The position numbers and the translations under genes were made by a program. The notes under the pieces are model-generated. The model did no database searches, was not told the origin of the DNA, and saw only the letters and a list, made by a program, of their open reading frames with translations. Shown here piece after piece: positions 1 to 8,961 of a DNA stretch of 26,998 nucleotides (its first letter is position 1; each line of letters begins with the position of its first letter). This DNA comes from a virus. Location: positions 1 to 26,998 of the IMG/VR virus record IMGVR_UViG_3300046009_004585; one strand, written 5' to 3'.

Positions 1-676
1 AATAACCAATACAAATTTGTCTACATTTTCTATGTGGAAATTCTAATTCGTACATGTAAGCATACACGCTTAATTGTAATGTATAAATTGACCATTGACA
101 TGCTTGTAAGTGGTCGAATGGTTTGAAAAGAGTTTCATAACCGTATTGGTTAAAGAAGTTGAATTCTCTGTTGGTTTTCCAGTCCCAAACATCAAAGTAA
201 GTATCATCAATATCGATAATAAGGTCAGACATACCAGCTAGTTCATATTGTTCAGAGAACATAATTCTTTCTGGCCACATTGCGATACCTTCATCAATTT
301 TTAAGTCGTTAAAACCATCAATCACTTTTTGTTCAAACTTACCTTCTTCTGTGTCGTCTGGAAAATACCATTTGTTGGCTAACAAATATCTTTCAACAAT
401 ATCGTGCACCTTTGTACCATACACATTCGCTTCATCATTAAGCATTTGCCAATAATCAAGTATTTGTTGTTGCGTCAAACCAATATATCGTTCTTGTTTT
501 ACGTTGTTTGGTTGATTGACAATAGCGGCTGACACAGCTTCAGAGTCAAAGTGTGGTTCGATTGATGTAAGTGTAGTTGTAACTGATTTATAAATTTTAC
601 CAGTTTCTCTGTGATGATATTTGTGTTCAATTGGTTCCAAGTAGACTGGCCCAACCCATAGTTTAGCATTTGACAT
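1..676 (-). CDS. PD-(D/E)XK exonuclease, RecB/Cas4-like, partial (3' end outside window)
   Basis: I translated this by hand from the minus strand; 225 codons are open from an ATG at 674-676 to the left edge, so the C-terminus is missing. The readable part carries the ordered signature of the RecB/Cas4-type PD-(D/E)XK nuclease superfamily: H91 in a G-x3-H-x3-E context, D151 in AGMSD, then D165-W-K167 (the D/ExK step), then Q194-x3-Y198 (the QxxxY motif typical of RecB-family nucleases). Such enzymes cleave DNA in a metal-dependent way and in phages serve recombination, replication or genome processing. A separate promoter-like element lies 17 bp upstream, in the gap after the primase gene, so it may be transcribed independently. 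No iron-sulfur cysteine cluster can be judged because the C-terminus is absent. The superfamily call is firm; the exact role is open. Confidence 0.85.
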   Translation of the reverse strand, partial: MSNAKLWVGPVYLEPIEHKYHHRETGKIYKSVTTTLTSIEPHFDSEAVSAAIVNQPNNVKQERYIGLTQQQILDYWQMLNDEANVYGTKVHDIVERYLLANKWYFPDDTEEGKFEQKVIDGFNDLKIDEGIAMWPERIMFSEQYELAGMSDLIIDIDDTYFDVWDWKTNREFNFFNQYGYETLFKPFDHLQACQWSIYTLQLSVYAYMYELEFPHRKCRQICIGY

Positions 677-692
677 AGTTTTTCGTTTATTA

Positions 693-720
693 CAAATATA
701 CTAAATTTTTATGCCAAATG
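693..720 (-). promoter_or_regulatory. Bacteroidota-type promoter for the exonuclease gene
   Basis: On the minus strand TTAGTATATTTG spans 704-693, ending 17 bp before the exonuclease ATG. It contains TATATTTG, matching the Bacteroidota -7 box TAnnTTTG. A TTTG lies 20 bp further upstream, near the end of the primase gene, at a plausible -33 position. The identical 12-mer precedes the primase gene and the primase remnant, which supports a shared regulatory function. No transcription start has been mapped. Confidence 0.6.
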
Positions 721-724
721 CAAA

Positions 725-1669
725 TTATTCTTTTAATTTGTGACTACTCATTAATAACTTAACAATACCACTATTACCCAAATATTGAAATACACTGGAA
801 GGGTCATAACCATCTGGTGGTGTACATATTTTTATACGGTCTTTTAAATCACCAGTATTTAATTCCCAATAAAGTCTTTCAGCGTCATCATAAGCGTCAC
901 TATCTAATAATATAACAACAAACGCTTTAGCTTTTTCGTGTAATAGATATTTTAATTTATCACTAATAAACTTACCTAATAATGGTATTGAATTAGGTAC
1001 AACAATATGGTCAGTCGCACCTTCAACTAAATAAATTGTTGCGTCCCAATTTATTTTATTCTCATTAAATATTATTTCATATTTTTCAGCATGAGGGTTA
1101 AGGTATTTTACTTTGGTTTTTTTATTTAAAAACCATCTAGCTATAAAATAATTAACATTACCATCAGAATCATAAGAAGGTATTATTATCCTATTTTGGA
1201 AGTCACCAGATATTGTATAACCGATATTATATTCTTTTATAATTTCATCGGTAATACCTCTATCTTTTAAATATTTTATAGCTAAATCTGATTTGTAGTC
1301 AAGTTTGGTACATTCTGATAATTTTTTATACCCTTCTGGTAACCTAACAATTATTTTTTCAGAATTTTTAGAACCATTGTAGTTGTATTCTGGTTTGAAT
1401 AAATTATATTCTCTTAGGTGGCTTTTAGTTCCGTATTTTTTAACTAGATTTTCTAAAGAACCGTACATGTGATTTGTTTCGTAACAAACCCAGCATTTAT
1501 ATACACCTTTATGGTAATTAAGTTCTAAATTACCCTTACCATCACCATTATATAAACCTTTATCAGCAGAGCACGCTGGACAGTCAAAGGCTGTTTGACC
1601 TGATTCTTGATTATGTTTTCTAGGTTCCCCCAGAAATGATTCAAATATACTTAATAAATAATTTGACAT
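725..1669 (-). CDS. DnaG-type DNA primase (zinc finger plus TOPRIM)
   Basis: This primase would synthesise RNA primers for phage lagging-strand replication. The N-terminus has a CHC2-like zinc-binding pattern, C30-x2-C33 and C59-x2-C62, used by primases to contact single-stranded template. The middle shows the DnaG core pattern around residues 131-180 (RGITDEII, then RIIIPSYDSDG and ARWF). The TOPRIM fold follows, with E216 in LVEGATD and the D256-x-D258 pair in LLDSDA, the metal-binding residues. At 314 aa it is much shorter than bacterial DnaG and ends soon after TOPRIM, so a helicase-binding C-terminal domain appears absent. The start is supported by the promoter element 15 bp upstream and by the matching start in the remnant at 2700. 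The next gene downstream is a nuclease, upstream is a homing-endonuclease cassette and then a resolvase, consistent with a replication/recombination block. Confidence 0.88.
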   Translation of the reverse strand: MSNYLLSIFESFLGEPRKHNQESGQTAFDCPACSADKGLYNGDGKGNLELNYHKGVYKCWVCYETNHMYGSLENLVKKYGTKSHLREYNLFKPEYNYNGSKNSEKIIVRLPEGYKKLSECTKLDYKSDLAIKYLKDRGITDEIIKEYNIGYTISGDFQNRIIIPSYDSDGNVNYFIARWFLNKKTKVKYLNPHAEKYEIIFNENKINWDATIYLVEGATDHIVVPNSIPLLGKFISDKLKYLLHEKAKAFVVILLDSDAYDDAERLYWELNTGDLKDRIKICTPPDGYDPSSVFQYLGNSGIVKLLMSSHKLKE

Positions 1670-1683
1670 ATTTAATTTTTAGA

Positions 1684-1695
1684 CAAATATACTAA
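1684..1695 (-). promoter_or_regulatory. Promoter for the primase gene
   Basis: On the minus strand TTAGTATATTTG ends 15 bp before the primase ATG and holds TATATTTG, a match to the Bacteroidota -7 box. It is the same 12-mer found before the exonuclease gene and before the primase remnant. No clear TTTG -33 box is seen about 20 bp upstream, only T-rich sequence. The element lies in the 99-bp divergent gap shared with the regulator gene of the mobile cassette. Confidence 0.55.
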
Positions 1696-1715
1696 AATTA
1701 TTTTAAAATATTTAA

Positions 1716-1745
1716 TTTTTACCCGACTTTTTTATTTTTATCCGA
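1716..1745 (+). promoter_or_regulatory. Direct-repeat candidate operator upstream of the RHH-like gene
   Basis: Two 11-bp direct repeats, TTTTTACCCGA (1716-1726) and TTTTTATCCGA (1735-1745), differ at one position and repeat with a 19-bp period. They stand out because the CCGA cores are the only GC-rich bases in an otherwise nearly pure A/T gap. Ribbon-helix-helix regulators commonly bind tandem half-sites, so this is a natural candidate for autoregulation by the protein encoded from 1769. Binding is inferred, not shown. Confidence 0.35.
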
Positions 1746-1768
1746 TATTTATTATTAAACAAAAAATT

Positions 1769-2008
1769 ATGGGACGACCAAAACTAGAAGAAAAAGAAAA
1801 AAAAATTAAATTAGGTATAACTATATCTAAAAATTCATTTACCATGTTAGAAATGTTAACAAATAATAAATCAGAATTTATTGAAAAATTGATAAATAAT
1901 CATGTAAAGAACATAACAATAACAAATAATATTGAACTTAAATACGATGAAAATAACAATTATATTGGTAGTAAAACCACTAAAATAATTGATGTTGATG
2001 AAAATTAA
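1769..2008 (+). CDS. Small ribbon-helix-helix-like DNA-binding protein
   Basis: This 79-aa basic protein starts with GRPK, an AT-hook-like tetrapeptide, and then follows the pattern of a ribbon-helix-helix fold: a short hydrophobic strand (KLGITIS, about residues 14-20), a first helix (about 21-32), a turn (NNK), and a second helix with the family-typical KSEFIEKLI (about 34-42). RHH proteins are dimeric transcriptional regulators that insert the strand into the major groove. It is the first gene of a two-gene plus-strand cassette; its stop overlaps the start of the GIY-YIG endonuclease gene by 11 bp, so the two are probably translationally coupled. The likely job is to restrain cassette expression, perhaps through the repeats at 1716-1745. 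The fold call comes from sequence pattern only; a general DNA-binding accessory protein is the alternative. Confidence 0.6.
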   Translation: MGRPKLEEKEKKIKLGITISKNSFTMLEMLTNNKSEFIEKLINNHVKNITITNNIELKYDENNNYIGSKTTKIIDVDEN

Positions 2009-2633
2009 ATCTGGTATTTATAAAATAACGAATAAAAATAATGGTCGTTATTATATTGGAAGTTCCGTAAATATTAATAATAGATGGAATGAACACAAAC
2101 GCACGTTAAAACAACACAAACATGATAATCACTTTCTACAAAAGTCATGGAATAAACATGGTGAAGAATCATTTTTATTTGAAATTATTGAATATGTTTT
2201 AGATTTAGATAAATTATTAGAACGTGAACAATACTATTTAGATTTAATAACACATAATAAAAAAATAACTTATAATTTATGTAAGACAGCTGGGAATATG
2301 TTAGGGTTTAAACATACAGAAGAATCTAAAAATAAGATGTCTAATAGTCGTATTGGTAATAAAAATAGTTTAGGGTTTAAACACACAGAAGAAACTAAAA
2401 ATAAGATGTCTAAATCTCATTTTGGTCTTAAACATGATGATAAAACAATTAGTTTACTAATTAATATAGGTAAAAAAAATGATTTAAAATCAAAAAAATT
2501 TAATAGTAAAATTTCTGATGATATAAGAACAGAACTAATAAATAAATATAGTTCTGGTTCTTATTCAACTAGAAAACTTAGCGTTTTATATAATATTAGT
2601 AAATCAACAATATGGAATATTGTTAGAAAATAA
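1998..2633 (+). CDS. GIY-YIG homing endonuclease with NUMOD3 repeats and C-terminal HTH
   Basis: This is a free-standing homing endonuclease that would cut a cognate site in related phage DNA and drive spread of its own gene. I chose ATG 1998 (211 aa, MKIKSGIYKIT); a TTG at 1989 and an ATG at 1992 are in frame but add only two or three residues. The catalytic domain shows GIY at 6-8, YIG at 19-21, R29, a glutamate in EREQYY (probably E77) and N93 in TYN, all expected for an active GIY-YIG nuclease. Two NUMOD3-type DNA-binding repeats (GFKHTEE...KNKMS, about 103-115 and 126-138) follow, then a third partial one (GLKHDD). The last 40 residues look like a helix-turn-helix (STRKLSVLYNISKSTIWNI). 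It runs opposite to all neighbouring phage genes, a sign of mobility, and its stop directly abuts the truncated primase 5' fragment. No intron core was recognised around it. Confidence 0.9.
   Translation: MKIKSGIYKITNKNNGRYYIGSSVNINNRWNEHKRTLKQHKHDNHFLQKSWNKHGEESFLFEIIEYVLDLDKLLEREQYYLDLITHNKKITYNLCKTAGNMLGFKHTEESKNKMSNSRIGNKNSLGFKHTEETKNKMSKSHFGLKHDDKTISLLINIGKKNDLKSKKFNSKISDDIRTELINKYSSGSYSTRKLSVLYNISKSTIWNIVRK
2301..2413 (+). repeat. Tandem 44-bp repeat encoding NUMOD3 motifs
   Basis: Two direct copies, 2301-2344 and 2370-2413, match at 42 of 44 positions and repeat with a 69-bp (23-codon) period inside the homing endonuclease gene. Each encodes LGFKHTEE-x-KNKMS. NUMOD3 modules are minor-groove-binding elements that lengthen the recognition site of GIY-YIG homing endonucleases. 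The near-identical DNA suggests recent duplication or ongoing homogenisation of the module. Confidence 0.85.
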
Positions 2634-2700
2634 CAGTATCGTGGTTGTGTTTTCTAGGGTCACCTAAAAAACTTTCAAATATGCTAGCTAAGTAATTCAT
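2623..2700 (-). pseudogene. Truncated second copy of the primase 5' end
   Basis: An ATG at 2698-2700 opens a 25-codon frame starting MNYLASIFESFLGDPRKHN. It aligns with the N-terminus of the intact primase (MSNYLLSIFESFLGEPRKHN) with one residue gap: 17 of 22 residues are identical and most others are conservative (E/D, S/T). At DNA level I count 48 of 66 identical bases, with many differences at synonymous sites (TAT/TAC, AGT/AGC, GGG/GGT, CAT/CAC, AAT/AAC). Homology stops at about 2634, exactly where the oppositely oriented endonuclease gene ends (stop 2631-2633); the frame then hits TAA at 2623-2625. It also keeps a copy of the primase promoter element. I read it as the remnant of an older primase gene split by the cassette, not as a functional gene. 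Confidence 0.8.
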
Positions 2701-2704
2701 CTAG

Positions 2705-2716
2705 CAAATATACTAA
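2705..2716 (-). promoter_or_regulatory. Promoter element of the truncated primase copy
   Basis: TTAGTATATTTG on the minus strand, identical to the elements before the primase and exonuclease genes. Here it ends only 4 bp before the remnant ATG, so a transcript started from it would be nearly leaderless. If still active it would transcribe antisense into the 3' end of the homing endonuclease gene. Confidence 0.5.
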
Positions 2717-2739
2717 TAAAAAATTATATTTACAATAAT

Positions 2740-3396
2740 TTATTTATTTTCATTTTCTAAATTTCTTTTGTTGAAATAAGCTAGACCACATACGTAGGCA
2801 TCTGAAGTATCAAAAGTTTCTTTTTTAAGTTTGTTGTTTTTATCATAAAACCAACTAATCTGTGGTTCTAATTCAGCAACTTTTTCCCATAAAACATATT
2901 TTTTATCAATATCAAAAGGGTAACCACCAAAAAGAACTGGTGTGTTTTTTGATATTTGTTTTTCTGTTAAGGGTGTACCATCTTTTTTAGTAGTTCTAAC
3001 CGCCATTAAATCTGGAAAAGCGTATTTACGAGCATCATAAGATGAAATAAATTCTGGAACAACACCCAATGTATCGTATACCGATTTAGATATCATACCA
3101 TTGAACCTTAAAAGAGTGGCAATTGTATATACGTTATTTGATTGAAGAAGAGGTTCTTCAATGATTACTTTAGTTATACCAAAATCAGCATAATTTGATA
3201 AGAACTCACTTTCAAAAATTTCAACTTTTCTAAAAAGTTCTTCCATTTTATCTGTAGGTTTTGGTTTAACTTTAGGACTGACATGGTGTAATAGTTTAAT
3301 ATCACCCTTATTACCTTTGTCCTCAAAAAGTGCAATACCTATAGTAGATGTAGATACATCCAATGCTAATAAAAATTGTGGTTCTTTTTCTTCCAT
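2740..3396 (-). CDS. RuvC-like Holliday junction resolvase
   Basis: This 218-aa protein has the RNase H-like fold signature of RuvC-type resolvases. The first strand carries D13 in LLALDVSTSTIGIALF, the second acidic position is E80/E81 in VIIEEP, and the C-terminal pair D196 and D199 sits in DTSDAYVCGLAY. Together these would form the two-metal active site that nicks four-way DNA junctions symmetrically. In phages such enzymes resolve recombination intermediates and branched concatemers before packaging. It is separated from the upstream structural operon by a hairpin and followed on the same strand by primase and exonuclease genes. The C-terminus is basic and asparagine-rich (KRNLENENK). 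A different RNase H-fold nuclease is possible, but the D/EE/DxxDA layout and the length fit RuvC best. Confidence 0.82.
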   Translation of the reverse strand: MEEKEPQFLLALDVSTSTIGIALFEDKGNKGDIKLLHHVSPKVKPKPTDKMEELFRKVEIFESEFLSNYADFGITKVIIEEPLLQSNNVYTIATLLRFNGMISKSVYDTLGVVPEFISSYDARKYAFPDLMAVRTTKKDGTPLTEKQISKNTPVLFGGYPFDIDKKYVLWEKVAELEPQISWFYDKNNKLKKETFDTSDAYVCGLAYFNKRNLENENK

Positions 3397-3414
3397 ATAA
3401 CTTTTTTATAGTAA

Positions 3415-3448
3415 TTTAAGACTTTATTGTGAAAAATAAAGTCTTAAA
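3415..3448 (-). terminator. Perfect 14-bp hairpin at the end of the structural operon
   Basis: The arms 3415-3428 and 3435-3448 are perfectly complementary over 14 bp, around a 6-nt loop (3429-3434). The right arm covers the TAA stop of the 400-aa fibre gene. It lies exactly at the boundary between the long structural operon and the resolvase gene. No clean U-tract follows on the minus strand (TTACTATAAAAAAG follows the stem), so it may act as a weak or factor-assisted terminator, a processing site or an mRNA 3'-end stabiliser. Confidence 0.6.
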
Positions 3449-4646
3449 CACTAATTTTTATTGAAAGAGCTAAAAATTCATTTATATTTTTAGATATTTG
3501 TCGGTCAGGTTTAGCATAAGCTATTAAATTACCAACATCATCATATAAACCAACTTCAGAAATTCTAGGGATATCATCAAATTCAAATGTAGGGTTAGTT
3601 GATGACCCAAATTCACCTCTATCAGCAATACAATTAACTATTTGGTAAACACCTGTTGATTGACTATCGAAACTAACTGTTGTTGCTGTACTAGCTGATG
3701 ATGTAAAATTATTAACAATTGTAGGGTCCGTAATAACGATAAAACCTTTATCTAAATACGCTATACCAACTAAGGTATCCGCTGTTAATGATAAATTTGT
3801 ATTTGTTTGATAATTATATGCTTTTTTACCGTTATAACTAAAAGGTCTGTTTGTGTTATAACCAGTAGCCCAACTTAAACTAGAATCACCACCATTTGGT
3901 GTTTTTATTGAATCACAAACTAACATAGATACATTGTTACCAAACATACTACTTTTAAGGTTACCATCGGTTAACAAACTATCCATTATATTTAATGGTT
4001 GTGTGTTATACTGATAAGTAGAATAAATAGTATATGTTCCAGCACTAGTTGGTAATTCAATTTTTAAAGATTTACCATCTATCAATTCACCATAAGTAGA
4101 ATCGTTAATAGCAATTGCCACAATTTTATTAACCGCGAACCCGCTAAATGCTGTATTCGCGTATCCGTTATTTGTTGCCGTTGTTGATGTAAATGTGGTA
4201 AAGTTTGTATCGTTTATCGGTAACCCAAAAGAATAATATAAATTTGTTTTACTATCAGTAGTGTAATCTGTTCTATTGATAACAGAAAAACTTAAATTAC
4301 TACCACTTATTGTTGTGTAACCAATTAATTCTGATTCTGTTAAAATATTTGTAGATTGTGTACCTACAGATTTAGTTAGTAATCCACTAGTATTAACTAT
4401 AAGTGGATTTTTAATACCTGTAACTTTAGTTGTACTATTATTGTTAGTGTTATTAACACCTATATCACCAGCTATACTAGGTACTTCACCTGTTCCTAAG
4501 GATAGATTGGTGTAGTAGTTAGCATCTGAATCACCCAAACTAAAAGTTTTTATTAAACCATTATTTGTTGAAATCATTTTTTGTCTGCCTATCGGTGTTA
4601 ATTTAGCAGTTAATGTAAGTGTTGTGGCTGTATTGTTATATCCCAT
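3444..4646 (-). CDS. Tail fibre/collar-like structural protein (paralogue of the 715-aa neighbour)
   Basis: This 400-aa Ser/Thr/Asn-rich protein is the last gene of the structural operon. Its ends match the upstream 715-aa protein: near the N-terminus both show LT-x2-GR (residues 16-21) followed by a GDS motif (38-40 here), and near the C-terminus both show EVG-(I/L)-YD followed by NL and a hydrophobic strand (here SEVGLYDDVGNLIAYAK). Middle regions differ. The EVGIYD-type ending resembles a recurring module in phage fibre proteins and suggests a shared fold capping a variable shaft. The composition, rich in short beta-prone Thr/Ser/Asn runs with no Cys-rich or enzymatic motif, fits an extracellular fibre. 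A host-receptor-binding role is plausible but inferred. It starts 12 bp after the stop of the 715-aa gene with an A-rich leader. Confidence 0.6.
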   Translation of the reverse strand: MGYNNTATTLTLTAKLTPIGRQKMISTNNGLIKTFSLGDSDANYYTNLSLGTGEVPSIAGDIGVNNTNNNSTTKVTGIKNPLIVNTSGLLTKSVGTQSTNILTESELIGYTTISGSNLSFSVINRTDYTTDSKTNLYYSFGLPINDTNFTTFTSTTATNNGYANTAFSGFAVNKIVAIAINDSTYGELIDGKSLKIELPTSAGTYTIYSTYQYNTQPLNIMDSLLTDGNLKSSMFGNNVSMLVCDSIKTPNGGDSSLSWATGYNTNRPFSYNGKKAYNYQTNTNLSLTADTLVGIAYLDKGFIVITDPTIVNNFTSSASTATTVSFDSQSTGVYQIVNCIADRGEFGSSTNPTFEFDDIPRISEVGLYDDVGNLIAYAKPDRQISKNINEFLALSIKISV

Positions 4647-4658
4647 TTTTTTATTATA

Positions 4659-6806
4659 TTAAAAATCCATACTTAATTCTAGCATTATTGTGTTACCTCC
4701 AGATAAAGGAATAGGTGTTGATAATTTACCGATACAAACTAAATTATTACTAGAATCATAAATACCAACCTCAGTTATTTTTATTGTAGCTGGGTTAGTA
4801 GCTGGATTAGTACTTCTAGTTGGGTTTGTAGTAGAGTCAAACTGACCCGCATTTACCGTAATGTTAAAAATTGTTTTGTAAATTGTTGCACCAATGTACG
4901 TTGTTAAATTACCATAGAAAAATCTTTCATCACCAAATTGTAAATAAGTAGGGTTTGTATTTGCTGGTAAATTTAAAGATTGTATCGCATTATATGTTGT
5001 TGCGTTGTTATCTTTTAATTTATCTAAAATAAAACCAGTGATATTAGAGTTTTGATTTTCTAATAATTTAGGGTCTATCGTTTTGTTAGCAACAGATGTG
5101 ATAGCTGTTGATGTAAAATCATATTGTTTCCAACTACCAGATGCTGGTCTTGTTGTTGATTCAGCAACTATTTGATACAATAGCTTAAATGTATCAGCAT
5201 AAAAACCATACCCATCATAATCAACATTTTCTATCTTACGCATATAAGTTAATAAATCAGTCCCATTTATTCTAAACGCAACATCTTTTGCTGTCGATGT
5301 GTTGTTTGTGATTTTTATATATTTTTGACATGATAGTGAAGTAGTTAAACCACTATTGTAATTGTTTTCTAATGCGTATGAAATATACATAGTTTCACCA
5401 ACTGCTAACACACCTGTAGAAGTACCACCAGATGGTGCTTGTAACACAGCTGATAATTCTGGTAATGTCCAGTTTCTATTTGATTTGTATGACATAGCTG
5501 AAACAATTTCATCATCAGTAAACACAACTGTTTTTAGTTGTGGGAATACTTTACCAACAACATTAGCCGTTAAACCAGTGTTTATTTTTGTTGGGTCCTC
5601 GATTAAATCAATATATTCAATATCAGTATTTGTTATGTATTTAGTACTACCAGACCCTATAAAATTCATACCCATACTAGTACCACTAGCAGTGGCACCT
5701 GTTGTTCTATGATACATTAAGTCAGGTAATGTAATGTTTAAATATTTACCTGATGTTAAATCAGTGTAAAAATATTCACCATATAAATTAGAAATTGTGT
5801 TATTTGTATAATGAACTATTGATATAGATTTGCTTACATCGTCTAAATAACTTAAACCAACACCATCACATGTTGCTGGACCTGTCGTGCTATCAGATTC
5901 ACAATCAATTTCAAAATATGGTTGTTTTTGTCCTAAGAAATTATAAGAACCAAATTTAGTATAATCTTCATATAAATTTGTAGATGTTAAACCAGTGATA
6001 CCAGCTATATTTTCACACCAAACATTATTCATATTCCAAACGGGAACATCTGAACATGTTACATTGTTAGCTGAATCAAAAGATAAAGTACCAGTATCCC
6101 AATAAGCTGTTGTATTACCAGTTGCTATCGTATTATAAACCTCACCACCTCTATAAACAATAACTTGATTAGTGGTTGTTTGTGAAGAAAAATTAGGTAA
6201 GTTTCTATCTAAAGTTAAAGTATTCGTACCTACTGATTGAACCTTATACCATAAATTAGGTAGTGGTTTTGTGTTCGCGTTAACTGTTATGTTACCAGCG
6301 CTAGTATTAGACGATTTTAACAAAATTAAATCACCAACGTTAATTGTACTTCCAGTTGGTATTGTTATGTTCAATACAGTACCACCAGTTAATACATTAT
6401 TTGATACAGTGGTTGTGAATGGTGTATAAGTACTACCAGTTAAAGTTGTATATATACCACCAGAATTAGAGAAAAAACCTCTTTCTGTTGCAGCATTGTT
6501 TACTTGTGCTTTGATAACATTTAAAACGCTAGCATCTATAGTGTTTAAAGGACTAGACGCATTGCTAGGTTTAACAAAATATTTAAGATTAGGTTCTCTA
6601 TCTACTGGTCTCATAACAACACTTGTTGCAGATAATGAAACATCTGTTGGGTTTGCGTCTACGTTAGCTTCCCTAACATAATTTAATTCAGAATCACCAA
6701 CAGCCCAATATGTAAAATTTAATTTACCTTGTGCTAATTGTTCTCTACCTTTTTGTGTTAATTTAATGCTAACAAACGGGCTAGTACTTTGTATTATATA
6801 ACTCAT
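4659..6806 (-). CDS. Tail fibre/collar-like structural protein, long paralogue
   Basis: This 715-aa protein has the same N- and C-terminal modules as the 400-aa protein downstream. The N-terminus reads LTQKGREQLAQGKLN at 16-30, followed by AVGDSELNY, and the C-terminus holds ITEVGIYDSSNNLVCIGK. Between them lie about 600 residues of Thr/Asn/Gly-rich, beta-prone sequence, compatible with an elongated fibre or a receptor-binding domain. Sharing both ends while differing in the middle points to duplication followed by divergence or swapping of the central part. It follows a 57-bp gap after the 509-aa fibre-like gene, one of the longest in the operon, so a secondary promoter is possible. It is exported only as part of the virion; no signal peptide is seen. 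Confidence 0.6.
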   Translation of the reverse strand: MSYIIQSTSPFVSIKLTQKGREQLAQGKLNFTYWAVGDSELNYVREANVDANPTDVSLSATSVVMRPVDREPNLKYFVKPSNASSPLNTIDASVLNVIKAQVNNAATERGFFSNSGGIYTTLTGSTYTPFTTTVSNNVLTGGTVLNITIPTGSTINVGDLILLKSSNTSAGNITVNANTKPLPNLWYKVQSVGTNTLTLDRNLPNFSSQTTTNQVIVYRGGEVYNTIATGNTTAYWDTGTLSFDSANNVTCSDVPVWNMNNVWCENIAGITGLTSTNLYEDYTKFGSYNFLGQKQPYFEIDCESDSTTGPATCDGVGLSYLDDVSKSISIVHYTNNTISNLYGEYFYTDLTSGKYLNITLPDLMYHRTTGATASGTSMGMNFIGSGSTKYITNTDIEYIDLIEDPTKINTGLTANVVGKVFPQLKTVVFTDDEIVSAMSYKSNRNWTLPELSAVLQAPSGGTSTGVLAVGETMYISYALENNYNSGLTTSLSCQKYIKITNNTSTAKDVAFRINGTDLLTYMRKIENVDYDGYGFYADTFKLLYQIVAESTTRPASGSWKQYDFTSTAITSVANKTIDPKLLENQNSNITGFILDKLKDNNATTYNAIQSLNLPANTNPTYLQFGDERFFYGNLTTYIGATIYKTIFNITVNAGQFDSTTNPTRSTNPATNPATIKITEVGIYDSSNNLVCIGKLSTPIPLSGGNTIMLELSMDF

Positions 6807-8652: not shown

Positions 8653-8961
8653 TTATGGTATTGGAATATATCCTATGTTATTTTTACCAAACATTACATC
8701 CACTTTAACACCAACTTCTTCTCTAATTTTATCTCTAATGTCGGTGTGTATATCATTAAATACAATAACGTCATAATCAGATTCTTCATCCCAATAACCA
8801 TGATTATAACTACCAAAAACAAAAACTTCAGTAGTTAAATATTTTTTTAAACTTTCTTTTATTTTTTTAAAAATTTCTTGTTTATCAATAGGTAATTCAG
8901 AAAAACTATTAAGTTTACCTCTATTTAATCTTTCTCTACCTTTAATTATAGTTTTATTCAT
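8653..8961 (-). CDS. MNT-type minimal nucleotidyltransferase inside the baseplate operon
   Basis: This 102-aa protein is a single polymerase-beta-like nucleotidyltransferase domain of the MNT class. It has G50-S51 followed by D62-x-D64 in GSYNHGYWDEESDYDVIV and the third acidic residue D88 in VDVM, so the metal-binding triad is intact. Such domains transfer a nucleotide from an NTP to a protein, RNA or small molecule; MNT proteins are best known as partners of HEPN toxins, but no HEPN gene lies nearby. The extreme N-terminus (residues 7-18, KGRERLNRGKLN) resembles residues 19-30 of the 715-aa fibre protein. Its start overlaps the end of the 1223-aa gene by 8 bp and the 80-aa gene follows after 11 bp, so it is embedded in the operon. 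The only ATG that gives the full domain is this one. The substrate is unknown. Confidence 0.8.
   Translation of the reverse strand: MNKTIIKGRERLNRGKLNSFSELPIDKQEIFKKIKESLKKYLTTEVFVFGSYNHGYWDEESDYDVIVFNDIHTDIRDKIREEVGVKVDVMFGKNNIGYIPIP

Follow-up and report, generated by a model that had tools for sequence, protein, structure and literature searches.

A putative homing cassette that replaces the 5' end and promoter of a phage primase gene, with similar layouts at the ends of other phage genes

The stretch of viral DNA analysed here, a record of 27 kb that we refer to as the window, contains a primase gene that was entered at codon 22/23 by a cassette encoding a GIY-YIG homing endonuclease, and we hold it very probable that this element is a homing cassette of a gene-end-replacing kind, one that cuts near codon 22 and restores the primase with a foreign 5' end and promoter. 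On the minus strand the order is a tail gene, a RuvC-like resolvase, a primase remnant with a promoter-like element, an operon running antisense, a further promoter-like element, and the complete primase, the features being located as follows:

1-676, minus strand: 5' part of a PD-(D/E)XK nuclease gene, truncated by the window edge, with the start codon at 676.
693-704, minus strand: promoter-like element TTAGTATATTTG, third exact copy, upstream of the PD-(D/E)XK gene.
725-1669, minus strand: active primase (Pfam DNAG_N, PHROG 47), chimeric, with codons 1-26 foreign and codons 27-314 native.
1592-1669, minus strand: replacement 5' coding tract, codons 1-26, identical to the cassette-free relative L002 in 51/75 nt and to the carrier L017 at 92%.
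1684-1695, minus strand: promoter-like element TTAGTATATTTG upstream of the active primase, acquired with the cassette; conserved in L017 and L008.
1716-1727 and 1735-1746, no strand assigned: two direct repeats TTTTTAYCCGA, putative operators of the regulator ORF; CGGRTAAAAA is conserved in the window, L017, and L008.
1769-2008, plus strand: small DNA-binding-like protein of 79 aa (ribbon-helix-helix/MazE-like), encoded by the gene that opens the cassette operon.
1998-2633, plus strand: homing endonuclease of 211 aa, GIY-YIG plus NUMOD3, whose start overlaps the 79-aa ORF.
2634-2700, minus strand: remnant, made up of the native codons 1-22 of the primase and one further base, severed by the cassette; identical to L002, L003, and L004.
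2705-2716, minus strand: native copy of the promoter-like element, which stayed with the remnant.
2740-3396, minus strand: RuvC-like Holliday junction resolvase gene, left flank (PHROG 159, E = 2e-7); identical to L002 in 656/657 nt.

The remnant abuts the endonuclease stop codon (2631-2633) and aligns to residues 2-22 of the primase with 76% identity (E = 3e-6). The initial annotation had described a second primase 5' copy with its promoter beside that stop codon, agreeing in 17/22 residues and 48/66 bases, which figures, counted with the start codon included, proved exact; when the remnant and the active primase are compared codon by codon and the start codon is excluded, 16/21 amino acids and 45/63 nt agree. 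The 12-mer TTAGTATATTTG occurs in exactly three exact copies in the 27 kb, all on the minus strand and each just upstream of a start codon, and includes the form TAnnTTTG, familiar from Bacteroidota promoters, a likeness treated as a lead and not as a test. As to the flanking genes, the full-length PD-(D/E)XK gene in the second contig L001 has a Pfam PDDEXK_1 match, and the RuvC-like resolvase gene is in relatives the target of sister cassettes. Elsewhere in the window, an ORF of 102 aa with a nucleotidyltransferase domain (8653-8961; PF01909, E = 7e-9) lies among large presumed structural genes.

The cassette-free relatives of the primase in IMG/VR (L002, L003, and L004, whose contigs measure 306, 33, and 206 kb, respectively) each have the resolvase, one promoter element, and one primase, whose 5' codons correspond to the remnant, just as had been anticipated. 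The remnant together with its upstream flank is identical to these relatives in 127/127 nt, the identity ending at window base 2634, after codon 22, and in the alignment of the window with L002 two blocks were obtained that overlap by 112 bases on L002, which overlap represents the duplicated 5' end. The active primase, for its part, agrees with L002 in 51/75 nt (68%) over codons 1-26 and in 852/864 nt (98.6%) over the remainder (Fisher p = 6e-20). From this split and the identity of the remnant we conclude that the active 5' end is foreign and that the remnant and the primase body are native. The relatives nearest to the 5' end are not those nearest to the gene body, which result agrees with the hybrid origin from two lineages that had been proposed; the donor lineage of the window's 5' end was not found among the cassette-free relatives, whose nearest 5' ends are only 0.73 identical. 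The earlier model had repair bringing in the cassette, a donor promoter, and a donor primase, of which the promoter and some 26 codons stand and a whole donor primase does not, the body being 98.6% native; the cassette, comprising the regulator-like ORF, the GIY-YIG endonuclease, the divergent promoter, and ~26 codons, thus replaced only the primase 5' end.

One 5' copy lies on each side of the insert, as after a duplication of the target, which arrangement would fit an origin in which the primase 5' end was duplicated locally in tandem at nuclease insertion and one copy then diverged. Yet the severed remnant is the copy identical to relatives, the diverged copy is the selected, active one, the gene body is 98.6% identical, and the diverged 5' end occurs also in a second lineage, that of L017; we therefore regard such an origin as very improbable, simple duplication being ruled out by the comparison with relatives. 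Furthermore, we saw neither the remnant as part of a different conserved short gene nor both 5' copies in cassette-free relatives.

The 211-aa endonuclease matched Pfam GIY-YIG (2e-11, 44 bits) and NUMOD3 (4e-13, 49 bits), both above the cut-off, as well as PHROG 314 (homing endonuclease) and TIGR01453 (129 bits; cut-off, 56); and R29, E77, and N93, the putative catalytic Arg, Glu, and Asn of a GIY-YIG endonuclease, were invariant across four homologues. Enzymes with GIY-YIG and NUMOD3 are often intron-encoded, which circumstance, along with the TIGR01453 match, could be taken to favour a self-splicing intron or an intein, the remnant being the 5' exon; but the active primase has a start codon of its own and an uninterrupted frame, the nuclease operon runs antisense to it, and Rfam gave no match at E<=1 in window positions 1-4000. 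Splicing is accordingly hardly credible as an explanation, and an intron in the primase was rejected on the Rfam result and the contiguous active ORF. The 79-aa ORF gave a weak MazE match under the cut-off (E = 0.0024), and its structure model, two helices with a mean pLDDT of 63, was of low confidence and too poor for a fold search. A small DNA-binding-like ORF is nonetheless common to the primase-type and the ruvC-type GIY-YIG cassettes (window 1769-2008; L130-L134), cassettes that otherwise differ, and in the primase-type cassette the conserved TTTTTAYCCGA repeats lie between the 79-aa ORF and the primase promoter, which two observations suggest, as a guess, that the 79-aa protein might regulate its own expression through these repeats.

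The layout of the window's cassette was found again in a different background in contig 3300042397_001152 (L017/L096). The window and L017 agree at 95.4% in the replacement region and at 92.7% in the nuclease operon, as against 84.2% in ruvC, 84% in the remnants, and 81.5% in codons 27-44, so that the cassette seems to move as a block; moreover, the L017 remnant and codons 27-44 match the cassette-free L006 at 97% and 96.3%. The simplest reading of these values is that the window and L017 represent two separate insertions of one mobile unit. The relative with the cassette thus has the same layout, as the initial annotation had expected, although the junction itself differs by 3 nt (...GATACT|GTTATTTTC versus ...AATGAC|GTTATTTTC), which difference indicates that the left joint may be formed by imprecise joining instead of strict homologous copying.

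Since all the window-type contigs are metagenomic, a chimera of assembly might be considered; but contig 3300046011_006760 (L001) agrees with the window in 4,699/4,700 nt across the cassette locus, the diverged carrier L017/L096 has the same layout in a different background, and the cultured phage TG1, described below, has the same pattern. The first two observations argue that the cassette is no assembly quirk, and we assign to that explanation a negligible probability. In the L008 group, the same nuclease lies a few bases past the resolvase stop codon, beside the primase and without a remnant; remnants are therefore not obligatory and can be absent or lost. In L008 itself (2671-4656), a RuvC-like gene with a cassette-type 5' end lies between two GIY-YIG genes with no remnant at either junction, possibly an older state or a donor-like form.

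The sequences themselves show where the element begins and ends, that the remnant is of native origin and the active gene chimeric, that the unit entered different lineages repeatedly, and that 5' and 3' versions both exist; for the mechanism, we propose the following course of events. The mobile unit would consist of the GIY-YIG endonuclease, the small regulator-like protein, the divergent promoter, and the re-spelled first ~26 primase codons. The endonuclease would cut a cassette-free primase near codon 22; with a carrier phage as repair template, the recipient stump (promoter plus codons 1-22) would then be joined to the endonuclease end, while the right crossover, falling among the zinc-finger codons immediately after codon 26, would rejoin the gene body, and the primase would be restored with a foreign 5' end and presumably expressed from the cassette's promoter. 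A carrier should resist re-cutting, having its native target interrupted and ~30% of the bases changed in the active copy. In later homing the stump could act as left homology arm, much as in the model for the WHO elements, where the duplicated gene fragment is the second region of homology (PMC7282813).

We scanned for recurrence by starting from HEG-bearing loci and checking the neighbouring gene ends for a second copy across the nuclease. Among 1,244 nuclease-neighbour ends we obtained 64 same-strand terminal duplications versus 5 on the opposite strand, which counts are redundant and include some tail-gene paralogues and ambiguous cases, the matches being then read by hand; from this small and nuclease-biased sample only a minimum number of independent events can be given. 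L066, L189, L357, and L140 were excluded as ambiguous, and ORF calls are weak in crAss-like records, which may use other stop codes. End-duplication matches of two adjacent tail genes were rejected as paralogous proteins instead of remnants (~36% identity, all at one spacing); in the window, the adjacent presumed tail genes at 3444-6806 (400 and 715 aa) have a related C-terminal stretch with ~36% identity over 49 aa, which likeness is probably paralogy. The gene ends retained were:

RuvC-like gene, 5' end, clear: L130, L131, L132, L133/L034, L057/L134, L049-L051.
RuvC-like gene, 3' end, clear: L133/L034 with HNH; L049-L051, L052, L061, L298, and L299 with GIY-YIG.
Primase, 5' end, clear, in three lineages: the window, L017, L052.
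PD-(D/E)XK nuclease gene, 3' end, clear: L001 and L003 with HNH, the cassette lying outside the window.
gp25 baseplate wedge gene, 5' end, probable: L123.
DNA ligase gene, 5' end, probable: L117, with a diverged remnant.
Integrase gene, 3' end, probable: L327, with a diverged remnant.

The window case is not unique, the 5' and 3' ends of several genes being treated alike. In the RuvC-like gene, the active 5' ends in L130, L034, and L008 resemble one another at 0.90-0.94, although no relative exceeds 0.73-0.80 when compared with the L130 and L034 bodies; the L130 and L133 remnants, in turn, agree at 0.93 with relatives that have no cassette. In L132, the remnant carries Tyr in place of the conserved Asp of LDVST, a loss to be expected of unselected DNA. 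The 5' version in ruvC has the cassette in the same direction as the gene and downstream of the stump, and the reading frames of nuclease and gene overlap in several carriers; a comparison of the RuvC-like gene with cultured phages gave no match. In L133 (4867-7510; also L034), both ends of one RuvC-like gene have a cassette, that at the 5' end with GIY-YIG and that at the 3' end with HNH, each accompanied by a native remnant.

The 3' version is illustrated by the PD-(D/E)XK gene, in which L003 and L002 have 0/900 differences before diverging at 15 positions within the last 19 codons, and in which the L001 remnant beyond the HNH cassette, the same cassette as in L003, is identical to the L002 native end in 56/56 positions; what was exchanged in this gene is precisely the part beyond the insertion point. 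That HNH cassette (L001, 6773-8337; L003, 4535-6093) holds in addition a 250-aa ORF resembling the N-terminal ATPase of T4-type large terminases (PF03237, E = 2e-6). In L123 (4638-5440) and L121, the first 12 codons of a gp25-like gene continue in frame into an endonuclease ORF, which fusion indicates that the endonuclease probably uses that gene's start signals; the gp25-like gene restarts downstream with its 12-codon start re-spelled, mostly synonymously.

A cultured example is the T4-like Yersinia phage vB_YenM_TG1 (L386, KP202158.1), which at 3370-5173 has a stub of gene 47, then a GIY-YIG gene, then gene 47 in full, the first 540 nt of the latter having been replaced. The stub, of 51 bases, is identical to phiR1-RT in 49/51, and the 1,000 bases upstream of it show 13 differences between the two phages, whereas the active gene 47 differs from that of phiR1-RT by ~26% over the first 540 nt and then by 1/480; in the TG1 record, the stub is annotated as a separate protein, 'recombination-related endonuclease II'. 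Among the 20-odd other HEG loci of named phages (L374-L385, L387-L395, L398-L401; L393, with its annotated split terminase, stood outside the duplication test) we found no convincing gene-end duplication, the few matches being paralogues, and the gene-end layout is therefore not a general property of phage endonucleases.

The explanation that competes most with ours is ordinary intronless homing, in which a free-standing endonuclease would have co-converted a donor promoter and 5' codons, the remnant being a functionless scar of imperfect repair. L008-type phages, with the nuclease beside resolvase and primase but without a remnant, agree with it, and T4 endonucleases are well known to co-convert flanking DNA (PMC2988022). 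Against it, the free-standing T4 enzymes are described there as cutting hundreds to thousands of bases away (PMC2988022), whereas the cut inferred here coincides with the insertion point; the exchanged tracts are minimal, at 26 codons in the primase and 19 codons in the PD-(D/E)XK gene; and remnants recur at many genes and ends. We consequently consider ordinary homing unlikely, though deserving of some weight, and prefer a gene-end-replacing cassette as the explanation.

The sequences favoured by homing endonucleases are conserved and essential, yet the gene that they enter must keep its function, for which problem introns, inteins, and landing between genes are the textbook solutions. Phages would use a further solution, known from fungi, in supplying a new, re-spelled end for the gene that was broken. 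On balance, we think it probable that gene-end-replacing cassettes are widespread and recurrently evolved selfish elements of phages—natural home-and-rescue drives—in which unrelated GIY-YIG or HNH nucleases are combined with re-spelled 5' or 3' ends, and sometimes with a promoter and a regulator, to patchwork essential genes from both ends. Terminal segments of phage core genes can then move horizontally apart from the gene body, which movement affects gene phylogenies and also annotation, where remnants are called as short genes; and the allele pairs L003/L002 and TG1/phiR1-RT make the origin and spread of such elements directly testable.

Among known systems, the synthetic home-and-rescue (HomeR) drives reportedly have the restored gene end recoded. 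They are alike in that a nuclease cuts an essential gene and the insert restores its function but, consisting of an engineered Cas9 in Drosophila, are a conceptual analogue of the window cassette and not a relative (PMC7968924). The free-standing Seg and Mob endonucleases of T4 have in common with our cases the phage setting, the GIY-YIG or HNH nucleases, and the co-conversion of flanking markers in intronless homing, but insert between genes and cut at a distant site, and a gene-end remnant or a re-spelled end is not described for them in the accessible part of that review (PMC2988022); in the window, the insertion is not intergenic between intact neighbours, but at primase codon 22/23 with a remnant. 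Closer in position are mobE in nrdA and mobA in the T4 topoisomerase, endonuclease genes within essential phage genes, whose targets remain split into two polypeptides with no replacement end supplied (PMC2988022). The phage reviews and survey, in the parts available, describe intergenic, intron, intein, and gene-splitting insertions and do not describe end replacement (PMC2988022, PMC10448857), and in the open-access literature searched we found no phage precedent for it.

The nearest counterparts are fungal, so that the analogy drawn in the initial annotation was apt (PMC3630166, PMC7282813). In the mORFs of Allomyces and Glomus mitochondria (atp6, atp9, cox2, nad3), an endonuclease ORF likewise adjoins a foreign and a native gene end, the native end matching relatives and the inserted end having diverged; those elements are mitochondrial, replace the C-terminus, and use LAGLIDADG or GIY-YIG nucleases, and the part of the source available describes no promoter or accessory regulator (PMC3630166). 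The WHO elements of Torulaspora and Lachancea also have a nuclease between an intact gene and a truncated native end without splicing, being situated inside an essential gene with a diverged, cleavage-resistant copy of its end and the native end fragment on the far side; they occur, however, in eukaryotic nuclear genes, at the FBA1 3' end, and have an intein-zinc-finger (LAGLIDADG) nuclease (PMC7282813), whereas our elements occur in phage genes with nucleases of GIY-YIG or HNH type, the window's not being of the WHO type. The fungal cases replace the 3' (C-terminal) end, while the window replaces the 5' end together with the promoter, the 3' versions being found in its relatives. In comparison with the fungal systems, then, the concept itself is known, and what differs is the nuclease family, the phage setting, and the 5' version with a promoter.
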